NCBI RefSeq assembly: GCF_900116145.1
Contig: NZ_FPAB01000005.1
Span: 1-64,000 of the forward strand
Direction: 5' to 3'
Length of the DNA stretch: 64,000 nt
Origin: Streptomyces harbinensis
GTDB taxonomy: Bacteria > Actinomycetota > Actinomycetes > Streptomycetales > Streptomycetaceae
The notes under the pieces are model-generated. The model saw only the letters and a program-made list of their open reading frames with translations, was not told the DNA's origin and made no database searches. Position numbers and translations under genes: made by a program. How positions within the stretch are numbered: the first letter of the stretch is position 1; each line of letters opens with the position of its first letter. Positions 7,673 to 41,490 of this stretch are shown piece after piece.

Positions 7673-8293
7673 TCACAGCGAACGGCCCACCGACGGCGCG
7701 GACTCGGGGCTGTGCCGCATCGCCGCGCTGCACGGGTACGTCTGCGGGCGCGGGTCGGGGGAGTCGGCGGGGCCGCCCAGCACCACCGCGTGGCCGTTGC
7801 CGAGCTGCTCGACCCGGGAGAAGGTGCAGATGATCTGGGCGAGGGCGAAGGCCGGGAGATCGCTGGGGCGTTCGCTCAGCCGCAGCACCGTGTCCGGGTC
7901 GTCCCCGACCGGGCCGGTGACCGCCAGGTCCAGCGGTACCGCGCTGGTGAAACCGGCGGCCTGCTCCTCCTCGTCCGGGTCGTTCTGGAGTTCGGTGAGC
8001 AGCGCGGCGGCCAGCGCGACCCGGTCGGTGCCGGCCGTGGTGACATCCACCGGGCGCGGTACGGCCTCCACGCGGGTGCCGCACACCAGGTACACCTCGG
8101 TGGCGGCGGCGACCGCCGTGCCGGGTACGGTGCCCGCGCCGGTCTCCATCGCCGTGTCGCAGCTGGCCCGGGACGGGGCGGGGCCGGCGTCCACCGGCAC
8201 ATTGGTGGAGCGGATGCCGCAGCCGGCGGTGGCCGCGAGCGCCAGGCAGGCCGCCAGGAGGGCGGGGCCGGTGCGCAGGGTTCCTCGGGTCAT
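7673..8293 (-). CDS. Lipoprotein of the afsQ operon
   Basis: 206 aa from ATG 8293. Lipoprotein signal peptide with lipobox (ALAATAGC, Cys at about residue 26), then a secreted domain with three further cysteines (SCDTAM, LVCGTR, YPCSAAM). The ATG overlaps the TGA of afsQ2 by 4 bp (ATGA), so it is translationally coupled to the sensor kinase. Its place in the operon suggests an extracytoplasmic partner that modulates AfsQ2 or is a conserved accessory of the system; that role is inference. The matching S. coelicolor neighbour is also a lipoprotein, as I recall. Confidence 0.85.
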   Translation of the reverse strand: MTRGTLRTGPALLAACLALAATAGCGIRSTNVPVDAGPAPSRASCDTAMETGAGTVPGTAVAAATEVYLVCGTRVEAVPRPVDVTTAGTDRVALAAALLTELQNDPDEEEQAAGFTSAVPLDLAVTGPVGDDPDTVLRLSERPSDLPAFALAQIICTFSRVEQLGNGHAVVLGGPADSPDPRPQTYPCSAAMRHSPESAPSVGRSL

Positions 8294-9921
8294 GTGTCGC
8301 GCTCCTTCCCCGGGCCGTCCGGCTTCCCCGGACGGTCCCGCTCGCCGCTGCTGTCGCCGTTCCCGCCGTCGCCCTCGGTGCCGTCGCACCCGTCGCTCTC
8401 GCCGTCGCCGTCGCCGTCGCCGTCCCCCGGCGCCTCGCGCGGCAGCCGCAGCGTGAACACCGCGCCGCCCTCCGGCGCGTTGGCGGCCGAGATCTCGCCG
8501 CCGTGCAGATGGGCGTTCTCCAGCGCGATCGACAGACCGAGCCCGCTGCCGTCGGAGCGCGGGCGCGACGCGCTCGCCTTGTAGAACCGGTCGAAGACGT
8601 GCGGCAGGACGTCCTCGGGGATGCCGGGCCCCTGGTCGGCGACCTCCACCACCACGTCGTCCCGCCCGGCCGCCGGGTCGATCTCCTCGCGCACCGAGAC
8701 CCGTACCGACCGGCCGCCGCCGTGCTTGAGGGCGTTGCCGATCAGATTGGCCAGGATGACGTCCAGGCGGCGCGGGTCGAGCCGGGCGGTGATCGTCCGG
8801 TCGGCGTCCAGCTCGACCGCGTCCAGCCAGGCGCGGGCGTCGATGCAGTGGGTGACCTGGTCGGCGATGTTGACGTCGTCCAGGACCATCTTGGCGGTGC
8901 CCGCGTCGAAGCGGGTGACCTCCATCAGGTTCTCCACCAGGCTGTTGAGCCGGCGGGTCTCGCTCACCACCAGCTGCACGGCCGGCGCGATCATCGGGTC
9001 GAGGCTGTCGACCTCTTCCTCCAGCACATCGGTGACGGCGGTGATGGCGGTCATCGGGGTGCGCAGCTCGTGCGACATGTCGGCGACGAACCGGCGGCTG
9101 GCCGCCTCCCGGGCGCGCAGATCGGTCACCCGCTGCTCCAGGGAGGCGGCGGCGGCGTTGAACGTGCGCGACAACTCGGCCAGCTCGTCCGCGCCCCGCT
9201 CCTCCAGCCGGGTGTCCAGCTTGCCCTCGCCGAGCCGCTGCGCGGCGTTGCTGAGCCGGGCGACGGGCCGCAGCACCATGGTGGCGGCGGCCTGGGCGAG
9301 CAGCGCCGAGCCGATCACCGCGAGCGCGGTGGCGATGCCGAGCGACCAGGCGAGCGAGTTGAGGTCGTCGCGCTCCGGTGCGAGGGAGGCGAGCATGTAG
9401 CCGGTGGGGCCGCCGTCGATGACCTGGGCGCCGCCGAGGAGGTACGGGTCGCCGTCGATCTCCACCCGCTGCCAGTACAGGTGGTACGGCGCGTCGGTGT
9501 CGTCGCGTTCCTGGTGCACCGCGTCGGCGAGCGAGGCGGGGACCATGTCCAGCCGGAACGCCGCCGGGTCGGTCTCGACGACGCAGTCGCCCTCGGGTCC
9601 TTCCCGGTCGACCAGCACCACCTGGTACGTCTGGTTGCCGCTGGTCATGATCGTGCCCATGTCGCGCAGCATCTCGCAGGACGCCTGCTCGGGCAGTCCG
9701 CCCGCTCCGTCGCCGAGGGCCTGGCTGAAGTCCTTCAGGGCCGAGTTCTGCGCGCGGGTGAGGACGGCGTCGCGGTTGAGCCAGTACGCGATGCCCGACA
9801 CCGAGACGGCGGCGACCAGCGCCACCAGCGCGAACACGGTGACCAGGCGCAGCCGCAGCGAGGTGAGCCGCAGGGCGCCGCGTATGAGCCGGCCCCGGCT
9901 CCGGGTGGGGGAGTCGGTCAC
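8290..9921 (-). CDS. afsQ2: AfsQ2 sensor histidine kinase
   Basis: 543 aa from GTG 9921, which overlaps the afsQ1 stop (GTGA). TM1 about residues 27-47, extracytoplasmic sensor about 50-188 with paired cysteines (SCEM, GDCVV), TM2 about 190-215, HAMP about 215-268, HisKA with phospho-acceptor His284 in DMSHELRTPM, and HATPase_c with NALKHGG, DQGPGIP and GSGLGLSI. An Asp/Gly-rich acidic tail ends the protein. It phosphorylates AfsQ1. In S. coelicolor AfsQ1/Q2 respond to nitrogen excess (glutamate medium) and control antibiotic genes and sigQ. Identification rests on the operon layout plus divergent sigQ. Confidence 0.92.
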   Translation of the reverse strand: MTDSPTRSRGRLIRGALRLTSLRLRLVTVFALVALVAAVSVSGIAYWLNRDAVLTRAQNSALKDFSQALGDGAGGLPEQASCEMLRDMGTIMTSGNQTYQVVLVDREGPEGDCVVETDPAAFRLDMVPASLADAVHQERDDTDAPYHLYWQRVEIDGDPYLLGGAQVIDGGPTGYMLASLAPERDDLNSLAWSLGIATALAVIGSALLAQAAATMVLRPVARLSNAAQRLGEGKLDTRLEERGADELAELSRTFNAAAASLEQRVTDLRAREAASRRFVADMSHELRTPMTAITAVTDVLEEEVDSLDPMIAPAVQLVVSETRRLNSLVENLMEVTRFDAGTAKMVLDDVNIADQVTHCIDARAWLDAVELDADRTITARLDPRRLDVILANLIGNALKHGGGRSVRVSVREEIDPAAGRDDVVVEVADQGPGIPEDVLPHVFDRFYKASASRPRSDGSGLGLSIALENAHLHGGEISAANAPEGGAVFTLRLPREAPGDGDGDGDGESDGCDGTEGDGGNGDSSGERDRPGKPDGPGKERDT

Positions 9922-10604
9922 GAAGGCGCGTCCAGCCGGTAGCCCACGCCGCGCACCGTACGGATCAGCTTCGGGGAGGACGGCACGTCCTCCACCTTGG
10001 CGCGCAGCCGCTGGACGCAGGCGTCCACCAGGCGGGAGTCGCCGAGGTAGTCGTGCTCCCACACCAGGCGCAGCAGTTGCTGCCGGGAGAGCGCCTGGCC
10101 GGGGCGGCGGCTGAGTTCCAGGAGGAGGCGCAGCTCGGTGGGGGTGAGCTGGAGGTCCTCGCCGTTCTTGGTGACGGTCATGGCGGCGCGGTCGATGACG
10201 ATGGAGCCGAAGGTGGCCGCGTCGTGCGACTCGCGTTCGCCGCGCCGCATGACGGCGCGGATGCGGGCGTCCAGGACGCGGCCCTGCACGGGTTTGACCA
10301 CGTAGTCGTCGGCGCCGGACTCCAGGCCGACGACGACGTCGATGTCGTCGCTGCGCGCGGTGAGCAGGATGATCGGCAGCTGATCGGTGCGACGAATGCG
10401 ACGGCAGACCTCAAAACCGTCGATTCCGGGCAGGTTGACGTCCAGCACGATGAGATCGGGCCGCTGTTCCCGCAGCAGCGTGAGGCCGTCCTCACCCGTC
10501 GCGGCGGTCACCACACGGTGCCCCTGGCGAGACAGGCTCATCTCCAGGGCCGTACGTACCGCCTCGTCGTCCTCGATCAGCAACAGGAAAGCCACGCGGC
10601 TCAT
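9918..10604 (-). CDS. afsQ1: AfsQ1 response regulator (OmpR family)
   Basis: 228 aa. The receiver domain (about 7-120) has the acidic pair E11-D12-D13, phosphorylation site Asp55 in LIVLDVNLPGIDG, the Thr of LLTARSDD and the Lys of DDYVVKP. The C-terminal winged HTH (about 132-225) has LTPTELRLLLELSRRPG and RTVRGVGYRLD. First gene of the afsQ1-afsQ2-lipoprotein operon, divergent from sigQ. A GTnAC-N6-GTnAC site lies 63 bp upstream and fits AfsQ1 self-regulation and control of sigQ. Confidence 0.93.
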   Translation of the reverse strand: MSRVAFLLLIEDDEAVRTALEMSLSRQGHRVVTAATGEDGLTLLREQRPDLIVLDVNLPGIDGFEVCRRIRRTDQLPIILLTARSDDIDVVVGLESGADDYVVKPVQGRVLDARIRAVMRRGERESHDAATFGSIVIDRAAMTVTKNGEDLQLTPTELRLLLELSRRPGQALSRQQLLRLVWEHDYLGDSRLVDACVQRLRAKVEDVPSSPKLIRTVRGVGYRLDAPS

Positions 10605-25465: not shown

Positions 25466-26101
25466 TCAGTCCCGGTCCCACAGCTCGTCGACCCGGACGC
25501 CGAGCCGCCCGAGCAGGGTACGCAGCAGGGGCATCGACAGCCCGATCACATTGCCCGGGTCGCCGTCGATGCCGTCGATGAACGGCGCGGAGCGGCCCTG
25601 GAGGGTGAAGGCGCCCGCCACGTGCAGCGGTTCACCGGTGGCGACGTACGCGGCGATCTCCGCGTCGTCGGGTGTGCCGAAGCGGACGGTGGTGGCCGCC
25701 ACCGCCGACTCCGCCCGGCCGGTGACGGTGTCGATCACCCGGTGGCCGGTGAGCAGGTCGGCGGACCGGCCGCGCATCGCCTTCCAGCGAATGACGGCCT
25801 CCTCGGCGGAGCCCGGCTTGCCCAGGGCCTCCCCGTCCAGGTCCAGGACCGAGTCGCAGCCGATGACCAGCGCCCCGGCGGCCCGCGGCAGCGCGGCGAC
25901 GGCCGCGGCCTTGGCCTCTGCCAGCACCTGGGCGAGCGCGCGCGGGGACGGGGCGCTCAGCGCGTCCTCGTCCACGCCGCTGACGATCACCTCGGGGGCG
26001 AATCCGGCCTGCCGCAGCAGCCCGAGCCGGGCCGGTGACTGCGAGGCGAGCACCAGGCGGCGCCGGGTGCCGGGGGCGGGGGTGCGGGGCGCGGTGTCCA
26101 T
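25466..26101 (-). CDS. maf: Maf/HAM1-like nucleoside triphosphate pyrophosphatase
   Basis: 211 aa from ATG 26101. [19 protein letters not shown] is the Maf signature (S.SPRR..LL), [17 protein letters not shown] the second motif with catalytic Asp, then [11 protein letters not shown] and [18 protein letters not shown]. It hydrolyses non-canonical or regulatory NTPs to NMP and pyrophosphate; Maf proteins are associated with cell-division arrest. -10 TACGCT (26114-26109) lies 7 nt upstream, so leaderless. Sits beside acyl-CoA carboxylase genes as in other streptomycetes. Confidence 0.93.
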
Positions 26102-26108
26102 GCCGGCC

Positions 26109-26114
26109 AGCGTA
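26109..26114 (-). promoter_or_regulatory. -10 of maf (leaderless)
   Basis: TACGCT on the minus strand, 7 nt before ATG 26101. Confidence 0.5.
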
Positions 26115-26167
26115 TCCAGCGGGGGCACCGGCCCGGTCCCGGCCGGTCGCGAACGGCGCCGGATGCC

Positions 26168-26222
26168 GTTCATCCCAACGCTTCAGACCGTTCACAGGCG
26201 GTTCTTATTCGTTTCTCATCTC
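26168..26222 (+). promoter_or_regulatory. Candidate PHO box upstream of the VTC/DUF4956/CotH operon
   Basis: 11-nt units like the Streptomyces PhoP direct repeats (consensus G[G/T]TCAYYYR[G/C]G as I recall): GTTCACAGGCG (26190-26200, 9 of 11), GTTCTTATTCG (26201-26211, 8 of 11) and TTTCTCATCTC (26212-26222, weak), with GTTCATCCCAA (26168-26178, 8 of 11) exactly two units upstream in phase. It ends 44 bp before ATG 26267. Control by phosphate starvation is inferred. Confidence 0.55.
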
Positions 26223-26266
26223 GGCCTTGTTGGTTGGCCCTTCGGATTCGATCGAACGGAGGATGG

Positions 26267-27091
26267 ATGGCCGCCGACGACGACGAGACCGGGCTCGCCC
26301 GGGGCGTGGCCAGCAGGCTGCACGCGTTCAACCGCTACGAGATCAAGTACCTGGTGGCGAACGAGGACGTGCCCGCGATCCGCTCGGAGCTGGCCCGCCG
26401 CATGGACCGGGACGAACACAGCCCGCCGGGTGGGTACGGGGTGTGGAGTCTCTACTACGACACCCCGGCGCTCCGCTTCTACTGGGAGAAGATCGAGGGC
26501 CTGAAGTTCCGGCGCAAGCTGCGGATCCGGCACTACGGCGAGCTGGACGCGGTCACCGACGACTGCCAGGTCTTCGTTGAGATCAAACAGCGCGTGAACC
26601 GGGTGACCCAGAAGCGCCGGGTCCGGCTGCCGTACGGGGCGGCCCGTCGGCTGTGCGACGGCCGCGAACTCGTCGATCCCGGCCCGTTCGGCCACGAGGT
26701 GGTCGATCTGCTCGTCCGGCTCGATCTGCGGCCCACCGTCATCACCGGCTACCGCCGTGAAGCGCTCAAGGGCCGCGACCAGGACGTGGGCCTGCGGGTG
26801 ACGTTCGACAGCCGGATCCGGGGACGCGACCGCGACTTCCACTTCGGCGCGGCGGCGGAGAACCGTTACATCATCCCGCCCCGGCTGACCGTGATGGAGG
26901 TCAAGGTCAACGAGCGCGTCCCGTACTGGATCACCGACCTGATGGCGCGGCGCAGCCTCAGCGTGGTCCGCGTCTCCAAGTACGTCCAGAGCGTGGAGGC
27001 CCACGGCAAGGCCCCGCGCTCCGTCTTCCACGTCCGTGAGGAAGCCCTCCCGGACCCCGCCCTCCAGAAGGAAAACGCCCGTGTTCTCTGA
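26267..27091 (+). CDS. VTC-domain polyphosphate polymerase-like protein
   Basis: 274 aa from ATG 26267, with GGAGG at 26258-26262. The whole protein is a VTC (triphosphate-tunnel) domain: AFNRYEIKYLVANED, SLYYDTPALRFYWEKIEGLKF, RKLRIRHYG, VFVEIKQRVNRVTQKRRV, YRREALKG, RVTFDSRIRGRDRD, and VMEVKVNERVPYWITDLM. Alternating Arg/Lys and Glu residues on strands line the tunnel that in yeast Vtc4 builds polyphosphate from ATP. No SPX or membrane domain is present. Overlaps the DUF4956 gene by 11 bp, in an operon with CotH behind a PHO-box-like element. Confidence 0.88.
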   Translation: MAADDDETGLARGVASRLHAFNRYEIKYLVANEDVPAIRSELARRMDRDEHSPPGGYGVWSLYYDTPALRFYWEKIEGLKFRRKLRIRHYGELDAVTDDCQVFVEIKQRVNRVTQKRRVRLPYGAARRLCDGRELVDPGPFGHEVVDLLVRLDLRPTVITGYRREALKGRDQDVGLRVTFDSRIRGRDRDFHFGAAAENRYIIPPRLTVMEVKVNERVPYWITDLMARRSLSVVRVSKYVQSVEAHGKAPRSVFHVREEALPDPALQKENARVL

Positions 27092-27758
27092 ACTCCAGGA
27101 CCTCAGCGGTACGTTCAGTGTCGCCGACATCGTGCTCTCGCTGGTGATCTCGTTCGCGCTGAGCATGATGGTCGGCTACGTCTACCGCGCCACCCACCGC
27201 AATGTGTCCTACAGCCAGTCGTATGTGCAGACGCTGGTGATCATCGGCGTCATCGTGGCGATGATCCTGCTGGTCGTCGGCTCCAACCTGGCCCGGGCGT
27301 TCTCGCTGGTCGGCGCGTTGTCGGTGGTGCGGTTCCGCAACGCCATCAAGGAAACCCGGGATGTCGGCTTCATCTTCCTGGTGATGGGCCTGGGCATGGC
27401 CTGCGGCGCCCGGTTCTACGCGCTGGCCGTCATCGCCGGCATCACCATCTGCGTGATCATCCTGGTGATGCACAAGTTCAACATGTTCCAGCTGAACGTG
27501 CAGCGCCAGGTCGTCAAGGTGCAGGTGCCGGCCGGTGAGGACTACACCCAGCGCATCCAGGACGTCCTGATCGACTTCACCACCGAGTTCGAGCTGGTCA
27601 GCACCGAGTCGATACGCGGCGGGGCGCTCAGCGAGGTCTTCTACACCGTGCGGATGAAGAAGGGCCGGCAGCCGGGCGCCCTGGTGGCGGCGCTGACGGA
27701 GCGCACCATGGGCCAGCGGGTGACCGTCCTGACCGGCTACGACCAGACGGACCTCTGA
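27081..27758 (+). CDS. DUF4956 integral membrane protein
   Basis: 225 aa from GTG 27081, inside the end of the VTC gene, with AAGGA upstream. Four hydrophobic segments in the first half (about 12-32, 48-68, 70-90 and 103-125), with the strongly conserved-looking stretch GALSVVRFRNAIKETRDVGFIFLVMGLGMACG between TM3 and TM4. The C-terminal cytoplasmic domain of about 90 residues (VKVQVPAGEDYTQRIQDVLIDF) has a ferredoxin-like pattern. DUF4956 proteins are habitually encoded beside VTC proteins. It may anchor the polymerase or move its product across the membrane (inference). Confidence 0.88.
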   Translation: MFSELQDLSGTFSVADIVLSLVISFALSMMVGYVYRATHRNVSYSQSYVQTLVIIGVIVAMILLVVGSNLARAFSLVGALSVVRFRNAIKETRDVGFIFLVMGLGMACGARFYALAVIAGITICVIILVMHKFNMFQLNVQRQVVKVQVPAGEDYTQRIQDVLIDFTTEFELVSTESIRGGALSEVFYTVRMKKGRQPGALVAALTERTMGQRVTVLTGYDQTDL

Positions 27759-29476
27759 TGACGGGCGACGGCGGGCGGGCCCGGCTCGTCCACCGGTTGC
27801 CGGTGCCGCTGCGGCAGCACTGGAAGCCGGTGGCGGCGCTGGCGGTGACGCTGGCCCTGCTGCTGGTGTACTTCGGCGACACCCGGGTCTCGGCGCTGGT
27901 GACCAGCGCCTCGGACGGCGACGGCGAGCAGATCACCCAGAACATCGCGGGCATCACCGACCTCTACGACAGTGCCGCCGAGCACACCGTCTCGCTGGAG
28001 TACGACGAGGCCGACTACCAGCGGCTGATCACCGCCTTCCAGGAGGACGGCGACAAGGAGTGGATGGAGGCCGATCTCACCATCGACGGCACGTTCATCG
28101 AGTCCGTCGGCGTCCGGCTGAAGGGCAACTCCACGCTCAGCTCGCTGGGCGGCGAGGGCATGGGCGTCTCGGGGCTGCGGATCGTGGGACCGGACGGCGA
28201 GGAGCTCGACCCGGCGGACATCGCCCTGCCCGAGGAGGGGGTCGCGGGCGGCGGGGGGATGAACATGATCGAACTCTCCCCCGATGAGCCCGAGAACCTG
28301 CCCTGGCTGATCAAGATCGACCAGTACATCGAGGGCCGCGCTTACCAGGGGCACACCGAGATCTCGGTGCGGCCCGGCACGGACGAGAGCCTGGCGCTGA
28401 ACGAAGCGCTCATGCTGTCGCTGATGGACGACTCGGGGCAGGTCGCGGAGCGGTACGCGTTCTCCACCTTCACCGTCAACAACCGCCCGGCCGCCACCCG
28501 GTTGCTGGTGGAGAACCCGAGCACCGGGTACGCCACCGAGCAGATCGACGGCAACGGGGTGCTGTACAAGGCGCGGGCGTCCAGCAGTTTCGCGTACGTC
28601 GGGGACGATCCGACCGACTACCAGGACCAGTTCAAGCAGATCACCAAGAAGGGCAGCCAGGACCTCCAGCCGCTGATCAATCTGATCAAGTGGGCCGAGG
28701 AGGCGAGCGACGAGGAGTTCGCGGCGGGGCTGGGCGACCGGGTCGACCTGGATTCGTTCGCGGCGTACGTGGCGACCCAGAACCTGCTCATGAACTTCGA
28801 CGACATGAGCGGTCCCGGGCAGAACTATCTGCTCTGGTACGACCTGGACACCAAGAAATTCTCGGTGCTGGGCTGGGACTTCAACCTGTCGCTGAGCGGG
28901 GACGCCACCGCGGGCCCGCACGACCAGGCGTCGATGGGCGGATTCGCCAGGGGGACGCTGCCGGAAGGTGCTCTCCCGGAGGACGGCGCGTTCCCGGAGG
29001 GCGCCTTCCCGGAGGACGGCGCGTTCCCGGACGGGGTCGAGATCCCGGAGGGCGCCTTCCCGGACGGTGCGTTCCCCGACGGCGGCGGCCCGGGCGGCGG
29101 CGGCCGGATGCCGCCGGGCGGCGACCGCGGCGGCGAGGACGGCGGCGCGGGTGGTGGCCCGCGGTTCGTCGGCCCGGACGGCGAGGAAATCGCACCGGAC
29201 GGCGACGGGGAGATGCGCGGGATGGGCGGCAACATCCTCAAGGAACGCTTCCTGGAGCTGGACGCCTTCGACGACGTCTACCTCGACGCCTACCACGACC
29301 TCTACCAGCAGTGGTTCGCCTCCGGCAGCGCGCTGGAGGCCCTGGACGCGGTACTGGAGGCGGCCGGGGCCAACGGCGCCGACCCGGACGCCCTGGCGGC
29401 CACGGCCGACCAGCTGCGCGCCACGCTCACCGAGCGGGCCACCGCACTGGCCGCCGACGAGACGGTCACCGGCTGA
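27758..29476 (+). CDS. CotH-family kinase-like surface protein
   Basis: 572 aa. ATG 27758 overlaps the DUF4956 stop (TGATG). One TM or uncleaved signal at residues 24-40 places the rest outside. CotH motifs: GVRLKGNSTLSS, a family R-x-K-G-N-S element; ERYAFSTFTVNNRPAATRLLVENP; NFDDMSGPGQNYLLWYDLDTKKFSVLGWDFNLSLSG, with the Asp and Asn of the WDxN metal site. CotH proteins of spore formers are Fam20-like kinases phosphorylating coat proteins. Residues about 403-450 carry a repeated 5-residue unit (GAFPE/GAFPD with Asp-Gly) and a Gly-rich linker. With VTC and DUF4956 it forms a three-gene operon. Confidence 0.88.
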   Translation: MTGDGGRARLVHRLPVPLRQHWKPVAALAVTLALLLVYFGDTRVSALVTSASDGDGEQITQNIAGITDLYDSAAEHTVSLEYDEADYQRLITAFQEDGDKEWMEADLTIDGTFIESVGVRLKGNSTLSSLGGEGMGVSGLRIVGPDGEELDPADIALPEEGVAGGGGMNMIELSPDEPENLPWLIKIDQYIEGRAYQGHTEISVRPGTDESLALNEALMLSLMDDSGQVAERYAFSTFTVNNRPAATRLLVENPSTGYATEQIDGNGVLYKARASSSFAYVGDDPTDYQDQFKQITKKGSQDLQPLINLIKWAEEASDEEFAAGLGDRVDLDSFAAYVATQNLLMNFDDMSGPGQNYLLWYDLDTKKFSVLGWDFNLSLSGDATAGPHDQASMGGFARGTLPEGALPEDGAFPEGAFPEDGAFPDGVEIPEGAFPDGAFPDGGGPGGGGRMPPGGDRGGEDGGAGGGPRFVGPDGEEIAPDGDGEMRGMGGNILKERFLELDAFDDVYLDAYHDLYQQWFASGSALEALDAVLEAAGANGADPDALAATADQLRATLTERATALAADETVTG

Positions 29477-29499
29477 CCCCCGGCCGGACGACCGATGAC

Positions 29500-29527
29500 G
29501 CAGCCGCCGGCCTACGCCGGCGGCTGC
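29500..29527. terminator. Terminator after cotH, shared with the opposite small gene
   Basis: Perfect 12-bp stem (GCAGCCGCCGGC / GCCGGCGGCTGC) with a 4-nt loop (29512-29515). The loop contains the stop codon (29512-29514) of the minus-strand small gene, so the two convergent genes overlap in the hairpin. Confidence 0.75.
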
Positions 29528-29655
29528 GCCAGCATCACCAGCGAGGTGCCGATCAGCCCGGCCAGGGCGATCACCCAGCCCACCCGGCGCAGCATCGCCC
29601 GGGTGGTCCTGGCTTCCCGGGAGGGCTCCTCGCGGCGCATGTCGGACCACAGCAT
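29512..29655 (-). CDS. 47-aa single-TM small membrane protein
   Basis: Reads MLWSDMRREEPSREARTTR, then ML..VGWVIALAGLIGTSLVMLA, ending QPPA and TAG. A basic/acidic cytoplasmic head, one TM (about residues 25-43) and a 4-residue tail. It lies on the same strand as, and upstream of, nothing co-directional closer than accE's 3' end (57 bp). Size, shape and position beside pccB/accE recall the tiny streptomycete proteins annotated as morphogenic membrane protein MmpA; that link is from memory. No good ribosome site (AAGG touches the ATG). Confidence 0.62.
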   Translation of the reverse strand: MLWSDMRREEPSREARTTRAMLRRVGWVIALAGLIGTSLVMLAQPPA

Positions 29656-29710: not shown

Positions 29711-29917
29711 TCACCCGCGCGGCCCGAACGCGGCCTGCCACGCGCCGGGCCCCGGCGCCGGCAGCGGGCGGCGCACCGCCTGCCGCGGGCCGGCCCACCG
29801 CTGGCGCGGTGCCTCGGCGGCGGTGGTGCCGGCCGCGGCCGAGGCCCGCGCCTGCATCACCGCGACCGCCGCGGCCAGTTCCTCGGGGGTCGGATTGCCC
29901 CGCACGACACGGATCAT
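29711..29917 (-). CDS. accE: Acyl-CoA carboxylase epsilon subunit
   Basis: 68 aa from ATG 29917, with GGAGGAG upstream. MIRVVRGNPTPEELAAAVAVM is the family hallmark (R.G.P..EE.AAL.AV), followed by an Ala-rich linker and a Trp-containing C-terminus (QRWAGPRQAVRRPLP). These small proteins are specific to actinobacteria and stimulate assembly and activity of the alpha6-beta6 carboxylase. It follows pccB by 53 bp on the same strand, as a unit with it. Confidence 0.9.
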   Translation of the reverse strand: MIRVVRGNPTPEELAAAVAVMQARASAAAGTTAAEAPRQRWAGPRQAVRRPLPAPGPGAWQAAFGPRG

Positions 29918-29970
29918 GAGCGACTCCTCCTTCGGTTCCCCGCCTGTCTCCCGGCTTCCCGGCTCCCGGT

Positions 29971-31578
29971 CTACAGCGGGATGTTGCCGTGCTTCTTCGG
30001 CGGCAGCTGCTCCCGCTTGGTCCGCAGCGCCCGCAGCCCGCGCACGATGTGCCGCCGGGTGTCGGCCGGCATGATCACCGCGTCCACGTAGCCGCGCTCG
30101 GCGGCGACGTACGGGTTCAGCAGCGTGTTCTCGTACTCGGCGGTCAGCCGGGCCCGTTCCGCCTCCCGCTCGCCCTCGTCCTCCAGCGCGGCCAGCGTGC
30201 GCCGGTGCAGGATGTTCACCGCGCCCTGCGCGCCCATCACCGCCACCTGGGCGGTGGGCCAGGCCAGGTTGAGGTCGGCGCCCAGGTGCTTGGAGCCCAT
30301 GACGTCGTAGGCGCCGCCGAACGCCTTGCGGGTGATCACGGTGATCAGCGGGACGGTGGCCTCGGCGTACGCGTAGATCAGCTTGGCGCCGCGCCGGATG
30401 ATGCCGCCGTACTCCTGGTCGGTGCCGGGCAGGAAGCCGGGCACGTCCACGAACGTCAGCACGGGGATGTTGAACGCGTCGCAGGTGCGGACGAAGCGGG
30501 CCGCCTTCTCGGAGGCGTTGATGTCCAGGCAGCCGGCGAACTGGAGCGGCTGGTTGGCGACGACCCCGACCGGCCGGCCCTCGACGCGGCCGAAGCCGGT
30601 GATGATGTTGGGCGCGAAGAGCGGCTGCGTCTCCAGGAACTCCCGGTCGTCCAGCACCCCTTCGACGACCTGGTGCATGTCGTAGGGCTGGTTGGCGGAG
30701 TCCGGGACGAGCGTGTTGAGCTGCCGGTCGTCCTCGTCCGGCTCCAGGTCCGCCTCCTCCTCGGGGAAGGCGGGCGGCTCGGCGAGATTGTTGGACGGCA
30801 GGTACGACAGCAGCGCCTTGACGTACTCGATGGCGTCCTTCTCGTCGCCCGCCAGATGGTGCGCGACGCCCGAGACGGCGTTGTGGGTGCGGGCGCCGCC
30901 CAGTTCCTCGAAGCCGACGTCCTCCCCGGTGACCGTCTTGATCACATCCGGTCCGGTGATGAACATGTGCGAGGTCTGATCGACCATCACCGTAAAGTCG
31001 GTGATCGCGGGGGAGTAGACGGCACCGCCCGCGCACGGGCCCATGATGAGCGAGATCTGCGGGACGACGCCCGAGCCGTGCACGTTACGGCGGAAGATCT
31101 CGGCGAACAGGCCGAGCGCCGTGACGCCCTCCTGGATCCGGGCCCCGCCGCCGTCGTTGATGCCGATGATCGGGCAGCCGGTCTTCAGCGCCCAGTCCAT
31201 GACCTTGACGATCTTCTCGCCGTACACCTCGCCCAGCGAGCCACCGAAGACCGTGAAGTCCTGCGAGTAGACGGCCACCGGGCGGCCGTCGACGGTTCCG
31301 TAGCCGGTCACCACCCCGTCCCCGTACGGGCGGTTGCGCTCGATGCCGAAGGAGGTGGAACGGTGCCGGGCGAACTCGTCCAGCTCGGTGAACGACCCCT
31401 CGTCCAGCAGCGCCAGCACCCGCTCGCGCGCCGTCCCCTTCCCCTTGGCGTGCTGTTTGGCCACCGCCCGGTCGGAGCCGGCGCGCACCGCCTCCGCCAC
31501 CCGCAGCCGGAAGTCCTCGATCTTGCCCGCCGTGGTGTGCAGGTCGGGGCTGGTGTCCTGGGGCGACAATTCGGGCAC
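29971..31578 (-). CDS. pccB: Acyl-CoA (propionyl-CoA) carboxylase beta chain, carboxyltransferase
   Basis: 535 aa. Crotonase-fold carboxyltransferase: [19 protein letters not shown] at the N-terminus, [32 protein letters not shown], the first oxyanion hole [33 protein letters not shown], and the second oxyanion region [36 protein letters not shown]. It transfers CO2 from carboxybiotin on the alpha chain to propionyl- and/or acetyl-CoA. The residue setting substrate choice cannot be assigned without an alignment; the pccB name follows position and N-terminal similarity to the streptomycete PccB as remembered. Confidence 0.92.
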
Positions 31579-40232: not shown

Positions 40233-40850
40233 TCAGGTGGCGGTCACCATCGCCGCCGCATCCCGCCGGGACAGCACCTGGTCGGCCAGCCCGTACGCGA
40301 CCGCCTCCTGCGCCGTGAACACCCGGTCCCGGTCCAGGTCCGCCCGCAACTGCGCCACCCCGCGACCGGTGTGGCGGGCCAGCACCTCCTCCACCTGCGC
40401 CCGGATCCGCGCCAACTCCTTCGCCTCCAGGCTCAGATCGGAGATCGTGCCCCGCCGCCCCCCACTGGCCGGCTGCCCCAGCAGCACCCGCGCGTGCTCC
40501 AGCACCACCCGCCGCCCCGGCTCCCCGCCCGCCAGCAGCACCGCCGCCGTCGAGGCCGCCTGCCCCACGCAGAACGTGGACACCGGCGCGGTGATGAAGC
40601 TCATCGTGTCGTAGATGGCCATCAGCGACGTGAACGAGCCACCCGGCGAATTGATGTACAGCGAGATCTCCTGCTCCGGCGCCGCCGCCTCCAGATGGAA
40701 CAGCTGCGCGATCACCACATTGGCGACCCCGTCGTCGATCTCGGTCCCCAGGAAGATGACCCGCTCGGACAGCAGCCGGCTGTAGACGTCGTACGCCCGC
40801 TCCCCGTTCGGCGTCCGCTCCACCACGGTCGGAATCGTGTACTGCGCCAT
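40233..40850 (-). CDS. clpP4: ClpP4-like protease subunit lacking the catalytic histidine
   Basis: 205 aa. ClpP fold with [19 protein letters not shown] and nucleophile Ser100 in [12 protein letters not shown]. Where ClpP has R-V-M-I-H-Q-P the sequence reads RVLLGQP, so the triad His is Gly125. The Asp region [18 protein letters not shown] is intact. One base separates it from clpP3, so they are co-translated. Probably a structural partner in a ClpP3/ClpP4 hetero-tetradecamer, with ClpP3 supplying the active sites (inference). Confidence 0.88.
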
Positions 40851-40851
40851 C

Positions 40852-41490
40852 TCAGAACCCCGCCTTCCGCGCCCCGCCGGCCGGCCGCACCTCGTCCAGC
40901 GAGGTCACCACCCGGTCCACCATCCCGTACTCCAGCGCCTCCTGCGCCGTGAACCACCGGTCCCGGTCCCCGTCCCGGCGGATGGTCTCCTCGCTCTGCC
41001 CGGTGTGCTCGGCGATGATCCGCTCCATGGTCCGCTGGGTGTGCTCCAGGTTCTCCGCCTGGATCGCGACATCGGCGGCGGTCCCCCCGATACCCGCCGA
41101 CCCCTGATGCATCATGATCCGCGTGTGCGGCAGCGCGTACCGCTTCCCGGGCGTGCCGACGGTCAGCAGCACCTGCCCCATGCTGGCGGCGAACCCAACG
41201 GCCAGGGTGGCCACATCATTGGGGATCATCCGCATCGTGTCGTAGATCCCGAGCCCCGCGTGGACCGAGCCGCCCGGGCTGTGGATGTACAGCAGAATCC
41301 CGGCCCGCGGATCCTCGGCGGCCAGCAGCAGCAACTGCGCGCACACCCGGTTCGCGGACGTCTCGTCCACCTGGGTCCCCAGCATGACGATCCGCTGGTC
41401 CAGCAGCCGGTCGGCCAGCTGATCATCGAACCGGGACGGCGCCGTATCACCCTCCCCGGCCCACGGCCCCCTCGTACGCACCACGGACAT
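40852..41490 (-). CDS. clpP3: ClpP3-like protease subunit
   Basis: 212 aa. Complete ClpP triad: Ser103 in [12 protein letters not shown], His128 in [10 protein letters not shown], and Asp in [18 protein letters not shown]. The oligomerisation strand [20 protein letters not shown] is intact. First gene of clpP3-clpP4, preceded by tandem PopR-type boxes. A secondary ATP-dependent protease core used with Clp ATPases, which are not encoded in this window. Confidence 0.92.

Follow-up and report, generated by a model that had tools for sequence, protein, structure and literature searches.

A 64,000-nt stretch of Streptomyces harbinensis DNA (contig NZ_FPAB01000005.1, positions 1 to 64,000; hereafter the window) carries a three-gene operon encoding a Vtc4-like VTC-domain protein, a DUF4956 membrane protein and a CotH kinase-fold protein. 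The triad is a real unit, inherited together. It is already known, having been published as cotH-PPP(VTC)-DUF4956, a cassette that accompanies pel operons in Gram-positive bacteria (PMC7112168), which agrees with the statement in a first reading made from the letters alone (the sequence-only reading) that these genes co-occur. What appears to be new here is an actinomycete form that stands alone, independent of Pel, together with the exchange of its outside partner within one genus and a conserved PHO-type operator. The explanation that we favour, with slightly less than even confidence, is that of a polyphosphate machine at the membrane, regulated by phosphate and working like the eukaryotic VTC complex, to which an outward-facing partner has been added. 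The genes are as follows.

26267..27091, plus strand: VTC-domain (triphosphate tunnel, Vtc4-like) putative polyphosphate polymerase, 274 aa, predicted cytosolic (PF09359, E=1.8e-44).
27081..27758, plus strand: DUF4956 membrane protein, divergent "type A", 225 aa (PF16316, E=1.9e-21).
27758..29476, plus strand: CotH kinase-fold protein, 572 aa, with an N-terminal membrane anchor and a probably extracytoplasmic domain (PF08757, E=1.6e-29).

All three genes lie on the plus strand at exactly the bases given by the sequence-only reading, and a check of the sequence confirmed to the base its description of an operon with an 11-bp and then a 1-base overlap. The VTC gene starts at an ATG at 26267 with GGAG ahead of it and stops at 27089-27091, 11 bp into DUF4956, which starts at a GTG at 27081; the single base shared by DUF4956 and CotH is the A common to TGA (27756-27758) and the CotH ATG (27758). 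Codon-position GC in the three reading frames follows the pattern of genuine high-GC genes, and each gene is present once in the host genome (5.8 Mb). The family assignments also stood, all far above the Pfam cut-offs, at 152.5 bits for VTC (cut-off 23; profile columns 1-232 of 235), 77 bits for DUF4956 (cut-off 30.6; canonical members score about 145-213, hence the window protein is divergent) and 103.9 bits for CotH (cut-off 23.8).

A scan of named genomes gave 388 relatives of the window DUF4956, found in Streptomyces, Micromonospora, Actinoplanes, Nonomuraea, Herbidospora, Mycolicibacterium and others, and 80 were kept for locus analysis. The gene order VTC>DUF4956>CotH is the same in all 79 actinomycete loci long enough to judge, with variable flanks, which excludes chance association; overlaps of 4 bp are the most frequent at both junctions. 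The sequence-only reading had proposed a functional unit and a survey of co-occurrence, and such a survey upheld the proposal: across 397 genomes of the phylum, DUF4956 is present in 43/43 VTC genomes (Fisher 1e-55) and VTC in 26/31 CotH genomes (Fisher 1e-24). Within the genus, 31 of 150 genomes carry VTC and DUF4956 together, with 34 having VTC and 32 having DUF4956. The control genomes that match VTC and those that match DUF4956 are the same three, an archaeon included. An OmpR-type response regulator and a histidine kinase are encoded within three genes of the cassette at 53 of the 80 loci.

Two types of locus occur in the genus. Type A, to which the window belongs, begins with VTC, has a divergent DUF4956 and always includes CotH (9/9 genus genomes). 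Type B, the commoner, begins with DUF4956 and usually lacks CotH; the third gene may instead be that of a Cthe_2159 beta-helix protein (PF14262) or of an exported PAP2 phosphatase (PF01569), or no recognised gene may occupy the place. In four genomes the gene of an exported PAP2-type phosphatase lies directly 3' of DUF4956-VTC, replacing CotH or Cthe_2159. In three others VTC (only a partial match in two of them) sits in the usual type B neighbourhood with no DUF4956 match, possibly through decay of the module. Some Streptomyces, S. scabiei among them, have a GT2-type glycosyltransferase gene after the cassette and its two-component system. Since Cthe_2159 or PAP2 replaces CotH in many genomes, the constant core is VTC plus DUF4956 and CotH is dispensable to it; what can be exchanged is the third gene, whose product is predicted to work outside the cell. 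PPK1 is encoded in 11/11 type A genomes tested; VTC would therefore not be the sole source of polyphosphate and would have a job beyond ordinary storage.

Upstream of VTC lie two candidate control elements.

26168..26222, plus strand: five phased, PHO-box-like 11-nt direct repeats, GTTCATCCCAA, CGCTTCAGACC, GTTCACAGGCG, GTTCTTATTCG and TTTCTCATCTC.
26227..26237, plus strand: the element TTGTTGGTTGG, following the repeat array; a similar GTTGGTTGC is found in the same place in many relatives.

The repeat cores read GTTCATC, GTTCACA, GTTCTTA and TTTCTCA, and the PHO box of Streptomyces is made of 11-nt direct repeats of GTTCACC (PMC4415409). The array is thus a probable operator for PhoP or another regulator of the OmpR/PhoB family, which supports the link to phosphate metabolism drawn in the sequence-only reading, and TTGTTGGTTGG is possibly a promoter element. 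As the array was first spotted in the window, it was tested on the related loci. A two-unit score of at least 11 was reached by 51 of 79 VTC promoters and by 17 of 685 other upstream regions of the same loci (Fisher 3e-44), and by 8/25 type B promoters (Fisher 5e-7), p-values that overstate independence because the loci share ancestry. The signal is confined to the 11-nt spacing, 65% of 48 sequence-distinct clusters pass, and the arrays occur across many genera. A consensus-free search for repeats found a signal at lags 11 and 22 only, and the unit derived de novo is (G/T)TTC(A/T)CA, not strictly GTTCACC, which leaves PhoP and other proteins of the OmpR family as possible regulators. Within the window the pattern GTTCAN6GKTC has its sole match at 26190 (0.48 expected).

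We also considered the array to be a property of the linked response regulator alone, but its frequency is similar with (68%) and without (58%) a linked two-component system, which favours PhoP without proving it; PhoP is the likely regulator of the operon. A genome-wide operator scan, consisting of one pattern search (GTTCACNNNNNGKTCA), found only two perfect sites in the host genome, at positions 377380 and 751274 of contig C17, preceding a secreted Fn3-metallophosphoesterase-like gene (named by inspection) and the gene of a PiT-type transporter read as pitH2. In S. coelicolor pitH2 is PhoP-dependent (PMC7866108). The operon resembles the Streptomyces Pho regulon (ppk, pstS, pitH2) in its 11-nt direct-repeat arrays near GTTCACC and in its predicted involvement in polyphosphate metabolism; in the literature searched, no assignment of VTC, DUF4956 or CotH to that regulon was found. 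A two-component system elsewhere in the window (8290-10604), comprising an OmpR-type response regulator and a histidine kinase that we take, by position, to resemble AfsQ1/AfsQ2, was considered as regulator and set aside, since nothing links it to the operon.

In Streptococcus, Clostridium and Bifidobacterium the same genes adjoin pel (PMC7112168). In S. intermedius (SIR_1592-1594) deletion of the DUF4956 homologue raised Pel and deletion of CotH lowered it, each more than halving aggregation in one medium, and for the mutant lacking SIR_1593, the VTC homologue, no change in aggregation or Pel is reported (PMC12345266). The authors of that 2025 paper state that they did not find the arrangement anywhere but in Pel loci (PMC12345266). 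Contrary to their statement, the triad is not confined to such loci: no link to pelDEADAFG is seen here, PelG exceeding its cut-off in 0/18 genomes that have the VTC core (CotH is present in 16 of the 18, and the window genome is among the 18), with one weak sub-threshold match. The Pel cassette and the window form share the same three adjoining families, with DUF4956 described there as MgtC-type membrane helices plus an ACT domain and CotH as secreted or outward-facing. The window form differs in standing alone without PelG, in its order VTC-DUF4956-CotH, in its PHO-type operator and in its often linked two-component system, and no DUF4832 hydrolase was noticed beside it. The spore- or hyphal-wall role suggested by the sequence-only reading is not supported by these comparisons. 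The same core is present in non-sporulating groups and is tied genetically to Pel-dependent aggregation in Streptococcus (PMC12345266); on distribution, specificity for spore or hyphal walls is rejected, and a spore-specific role is unlikely.

These Pel data underlie the explanation that competes best with ours, in which the triad would tune the production, modification or anchoring of a secreted matrix polysaccharide, with CotH and Cthe_2159 acting on carbohydrate polymers, DUF4956 as a regulator, and polyphosphate secondary or internal. The proximity to pel and the shifts in Pel and aggregation in the DUF4956 and CotH mutants are consistent with it, as are the annotation of the alternative third gene, Cthe_2159, as carbohydrate-binding and the presence of a GT2 "chitin synthase" alongside VTC and CotH in NELoc-2 of C. 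perfringens (PMC2879425). However, besides the missing PelG, no constant polysaccharide gene lies near the 80 type A loci, and a PHO-type operator is not expected for such a role alone. We regard this explanation as possible but on balance unlikely.

The AlphaFold model of DUF4956 (pLDDT 77, pTM 0.57) has membrane helices at residues 14-38, 46-66, 92-109 and 113-132, so the "four-TM" label of the sequence-only reading holds as far as the predicted helices go, but it leaves out a short re-entrant-like helix (69-85) that ends in R84-x-R86. The C-terminus is modelled as a beta-alpha-beta-beta-alpha-beta domain of ACT/ferredoxin-like type. An alignment of 36 divergent members leaves Y35, R84 and R86 as the only invariant residues. 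Profile-profile comparison (hhalign) matched DUF4956 to MgtC over 202 columns with a probability of 91.7% (reversed and shuffled controls, at most 1.4%), the Pfam MgtC profile (PF02308) scored 19.1 bits, under its cut-off of 31.4, and a Foldseek search of the model against PDB returned nothing at E<=0.001, the best matches being to ferredoxin- or ACT-like domains only. By the hhalign match DUF4956 is a remote relative of MgtC. It shares with MgtC membrane helices followed by an ACT-like domain and the significant profile-profile match, and is unlike it in falling under the Pfam cut-off, in being obligately linked to VTC and in carrying R-x-R. In yeast VTC, translocation of polyphosphate needs basic residues lining the channel (PMC9911596), and the R-x-R of DUF4956 may be analogous to these.

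The likeness to MgtC allows a different explanation, in which DUF4956 would be an MgtC-like regulator of ATP/phosphate balance, VTC a membrane polyphosphate sensor or sink and CotH a surface sensor, with no export. Besides the profile match over 202 columns and the sub-threshold Pfam score, it would account for the ACT-like domain, the PHO-type operator and the neighbouring two-component system. On the other hand, MgtC is not obligately linked to VTC and occurs in control genomes without it, such as E. coli and B. subtilis, and the intact catalytic trio of CotH and the VTC tunnel, described below, argue for catalysis in both. We therefore hold it to be rather improbable.

Three segments can be distinguished within CotH.

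27821..27877, plus strand: membrane anchor helix, residues 22-40, preceded by a basic N-terminus.
28799..28879, plus strand: catalytic segment with D348 (= B. subtilis D228), N356 and D374 (= D251); N376, Asp in B. cereus, lies just beyond.
28925..29227, plus strand: in-frame P-E-G/P-D-G repeat linker in the C-terminal part, residues 390-490, low-complexity and disordered (pLDDT <50).

The CotH model matches B. cereus CotH (5jda) with a Foldseek E of 3.5e-13 and a TM-score of 0.73 by target length, and the CotH profile matches 5jd9/5jda at 1.6e-31. D348, N356 and D374 are conserved in 77/77 CotH sequences, and the B. subtilis mutants D228Q and D251A are inactive (PMC7821199). As the basic N-terminus is followed by one membrane helix, the protein is probably anchored with its domain outside; an outward-facing CotH, as in the sequence-only reading, is supported and its catalytic residues are intact, but "membrane-anchored, facing out" describes it better than "exported". 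At 28877-28885 of the window the motif is WDxN, as in all type A copies, in place of the WDYD of B. cereus CotH. In the alignment nearly all VTC-linked copies have WDxN (with one linked exception) and both VTC-unlinked copies have WDYD, a difference that is possibly a marker of subfamily or activity. The linker of about 100 residues is Gly/Pro-rich and Ser/Thr-poor by composition across relatives. The window protein therefore shares with the Bacillus spore-coat kinase the fold and the catalytic Asp, Asn and Asp, and is unlike it in its membrane anchor, long P-E-G linker, WDxN motif and lack of any tie to endospores.

Bacillus CotH is a Ser/Thr kinase (PMC7821199), and with the catalytic residues conserved, the operon could be centred on CotH, which would transfer phosphate from ATP or a similar donor to envelope proteins while VTC and DUF4956 recycle or supply phosphate. 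The many genomes with the VTC-DUF4956 core and no CotH speak against this, as does the Ser/Thr-poor linker, and no Ser/Lys-rich substrate resembling CotB or CotG was noticed beside the operon, in the course of an inspection that included no systematic search. Such an arrangement seems to us distinctly improbable.

For the VTC protein, a profile of 32 bacterial VTC sequences matches yeast Vtc4 (3g3q) at 3.4e-21, and the non-catalytic Vtc2 and Vtc3 more weakly. Nine residues that we take, partly from the literature on Vtc4, to be informative tunnel residues were checked, and both the window protein and the 32-sequence profile retain the equivalents of all nine, K200, R264, R266, K281, K294, R361, R373, E426 and K458. 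R264, R266 and E426 are positions that have been mutated in Vtc4 (PMC9911596), and K458 is termed catalytic (PMC4641920). In TTM polyphosphatases glutamates replace four basic Vtc4 residues (PMC4641920); with the AtTTM3 positions mapped by motif spacing, R23, K116 and K213 of the window protein (R196, K294 and K428 in Vtc4) are basic and E25 (T198) is acidic, a mixed result. The description "polymerase-like" in the sequence-only reading thus fits the residues kept, a polymerase-competent tunnel is supported, and the protein likely makes polyphosphate. That it is instead a hydrolase or some other triphosphate-tunnel enzyme is very improbable: TTM folds carry many activities and E25 occupies an acidic-patch position (PMC4641920), but at the three other discriminating positions the protein has basic residues, like Vtc4, and the equivalent of K458 is invariant. 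The operon shares with the eukaryotic VTC complex (Vtc1/3/4; 8i6v, 7ytj, 3g3q) the Vtc4-type tunnel with its catalytic residues and a membrane partner with conserved basic residues. It differs in that its membrane partner belongs to an MgtC-like family, in adding an extracytoplasmic kinase-fold protein and in lacking an SPX or DUF202-type membrane domain, neither of which has a Pfam match in the VTC, DUF4956 or CotH proteins.

A polyphosphate machine of the kind we favour might operate in four steps. A regulator of the OmpR/PhoB family, most likely PhoP, would bind the array and set expression by phosphate supply. Cytosolic VTC would then polymerise ATP-derived phosphate to polyphosphate. DUF4956 would hold the polymerase at the membrane, a coupling that is likely, and would probably pass the chain outward by a basic path around the invariant R-x-R; by analogy with yeast, such translocation is plausible. 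Least certain is the last step, in which anchored CotH would act outside on or with the product, most likely by phosphorylating an envelope component; both the phosphorylation and its donor are speculative. In the sister systems the Cthe_2159 beta-helix protein or the PAP2 phosphatase would take the place of CotH, and the third gene would set the outcome outside. A bolder form, in which VTC and DUF4956 make up a plasma-membrane polyphosphate synthase-translocase induced by phosphate limitation and CotH phosphorylates the envelope with exported polyphosphate and not ATP, we consider doubtful.

Several points weigh against the polyphosphate machine. E25 is acidic, as in the TTM hydrolases. MgtC, to which DUF4956 is likened, is known as a regulator and not as a channel. 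Neither a phosphoryl donor nor a substrate for CotH is known outside the cell. The array could bind the linked response regulator instead of PhoP. Finally, polyphosphate as the sole output fits poorly with S. intermedius, since no effect is reported for loss of SIR_1593, unlike losses of DUF4956 and CotH.

The surroundings of the operon show it to be an insertion between maf and pccB.

25466..26128, minus strand: maf (PF02545), left flank of the insertion site, outside the system, placed by empty-site comparison.
29499..29528, no strand assigned: 13-bp perfect hairpin directly 3' of the CotH stop, terminator-like, without a T run (z = -3.8).
29711..31578, minus strand: pccE-like small ORF and pccB carboxyltransferase (PF01039), right flank, outside the system, placed by empty-site comparison.

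Ordinary core genes lie on either side, with accBC and maf on the left and the pccE-like ORF, pccB, birA and a cyclase on the right. The gap between maf and pccB is 3843 bp in the window and about 430-650 bp, with one of 881, in relatives where both genes could be placed, and VTC was found between them in none of the 29 relatives' loci compared. Streptomyces hainanensis and S. hoynatensis also hold the cassette at this site. In other genomes the cassette has different neighbours, so the three genes are moved or lost together. No tRNA or known RNA element was found in the window, and an anti-phage role for the operon is not supported, PADLOC having given no match. Elsewhere, two adjoining ORFs occupy 40233-41490 on the minus strand, the second encoding a Clp protease (PF00574) and the first resembling a second ClpP.

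In one unit under phosphate-type control the cassette combines a polymerase of Vtc4-like kind with a membrane protein and an outward kinase fold, in hosts that allow deletion of single genes. The PHO-type promoter sites make the older guess of exported polyphosphate directly testable, and the three-way exchange of outside partners offers a way to tell what the core does from what CotH does. The cassette bears on the means by which bacteria might bring polyphosphate to the cell exterior, and on the donor of an extracytoplasmic kinase where ATP is absent; if CotH is indeed fed by exported polyphosphate, DUF4956 would become the first known case of an MgtC-like protein that conducts it.

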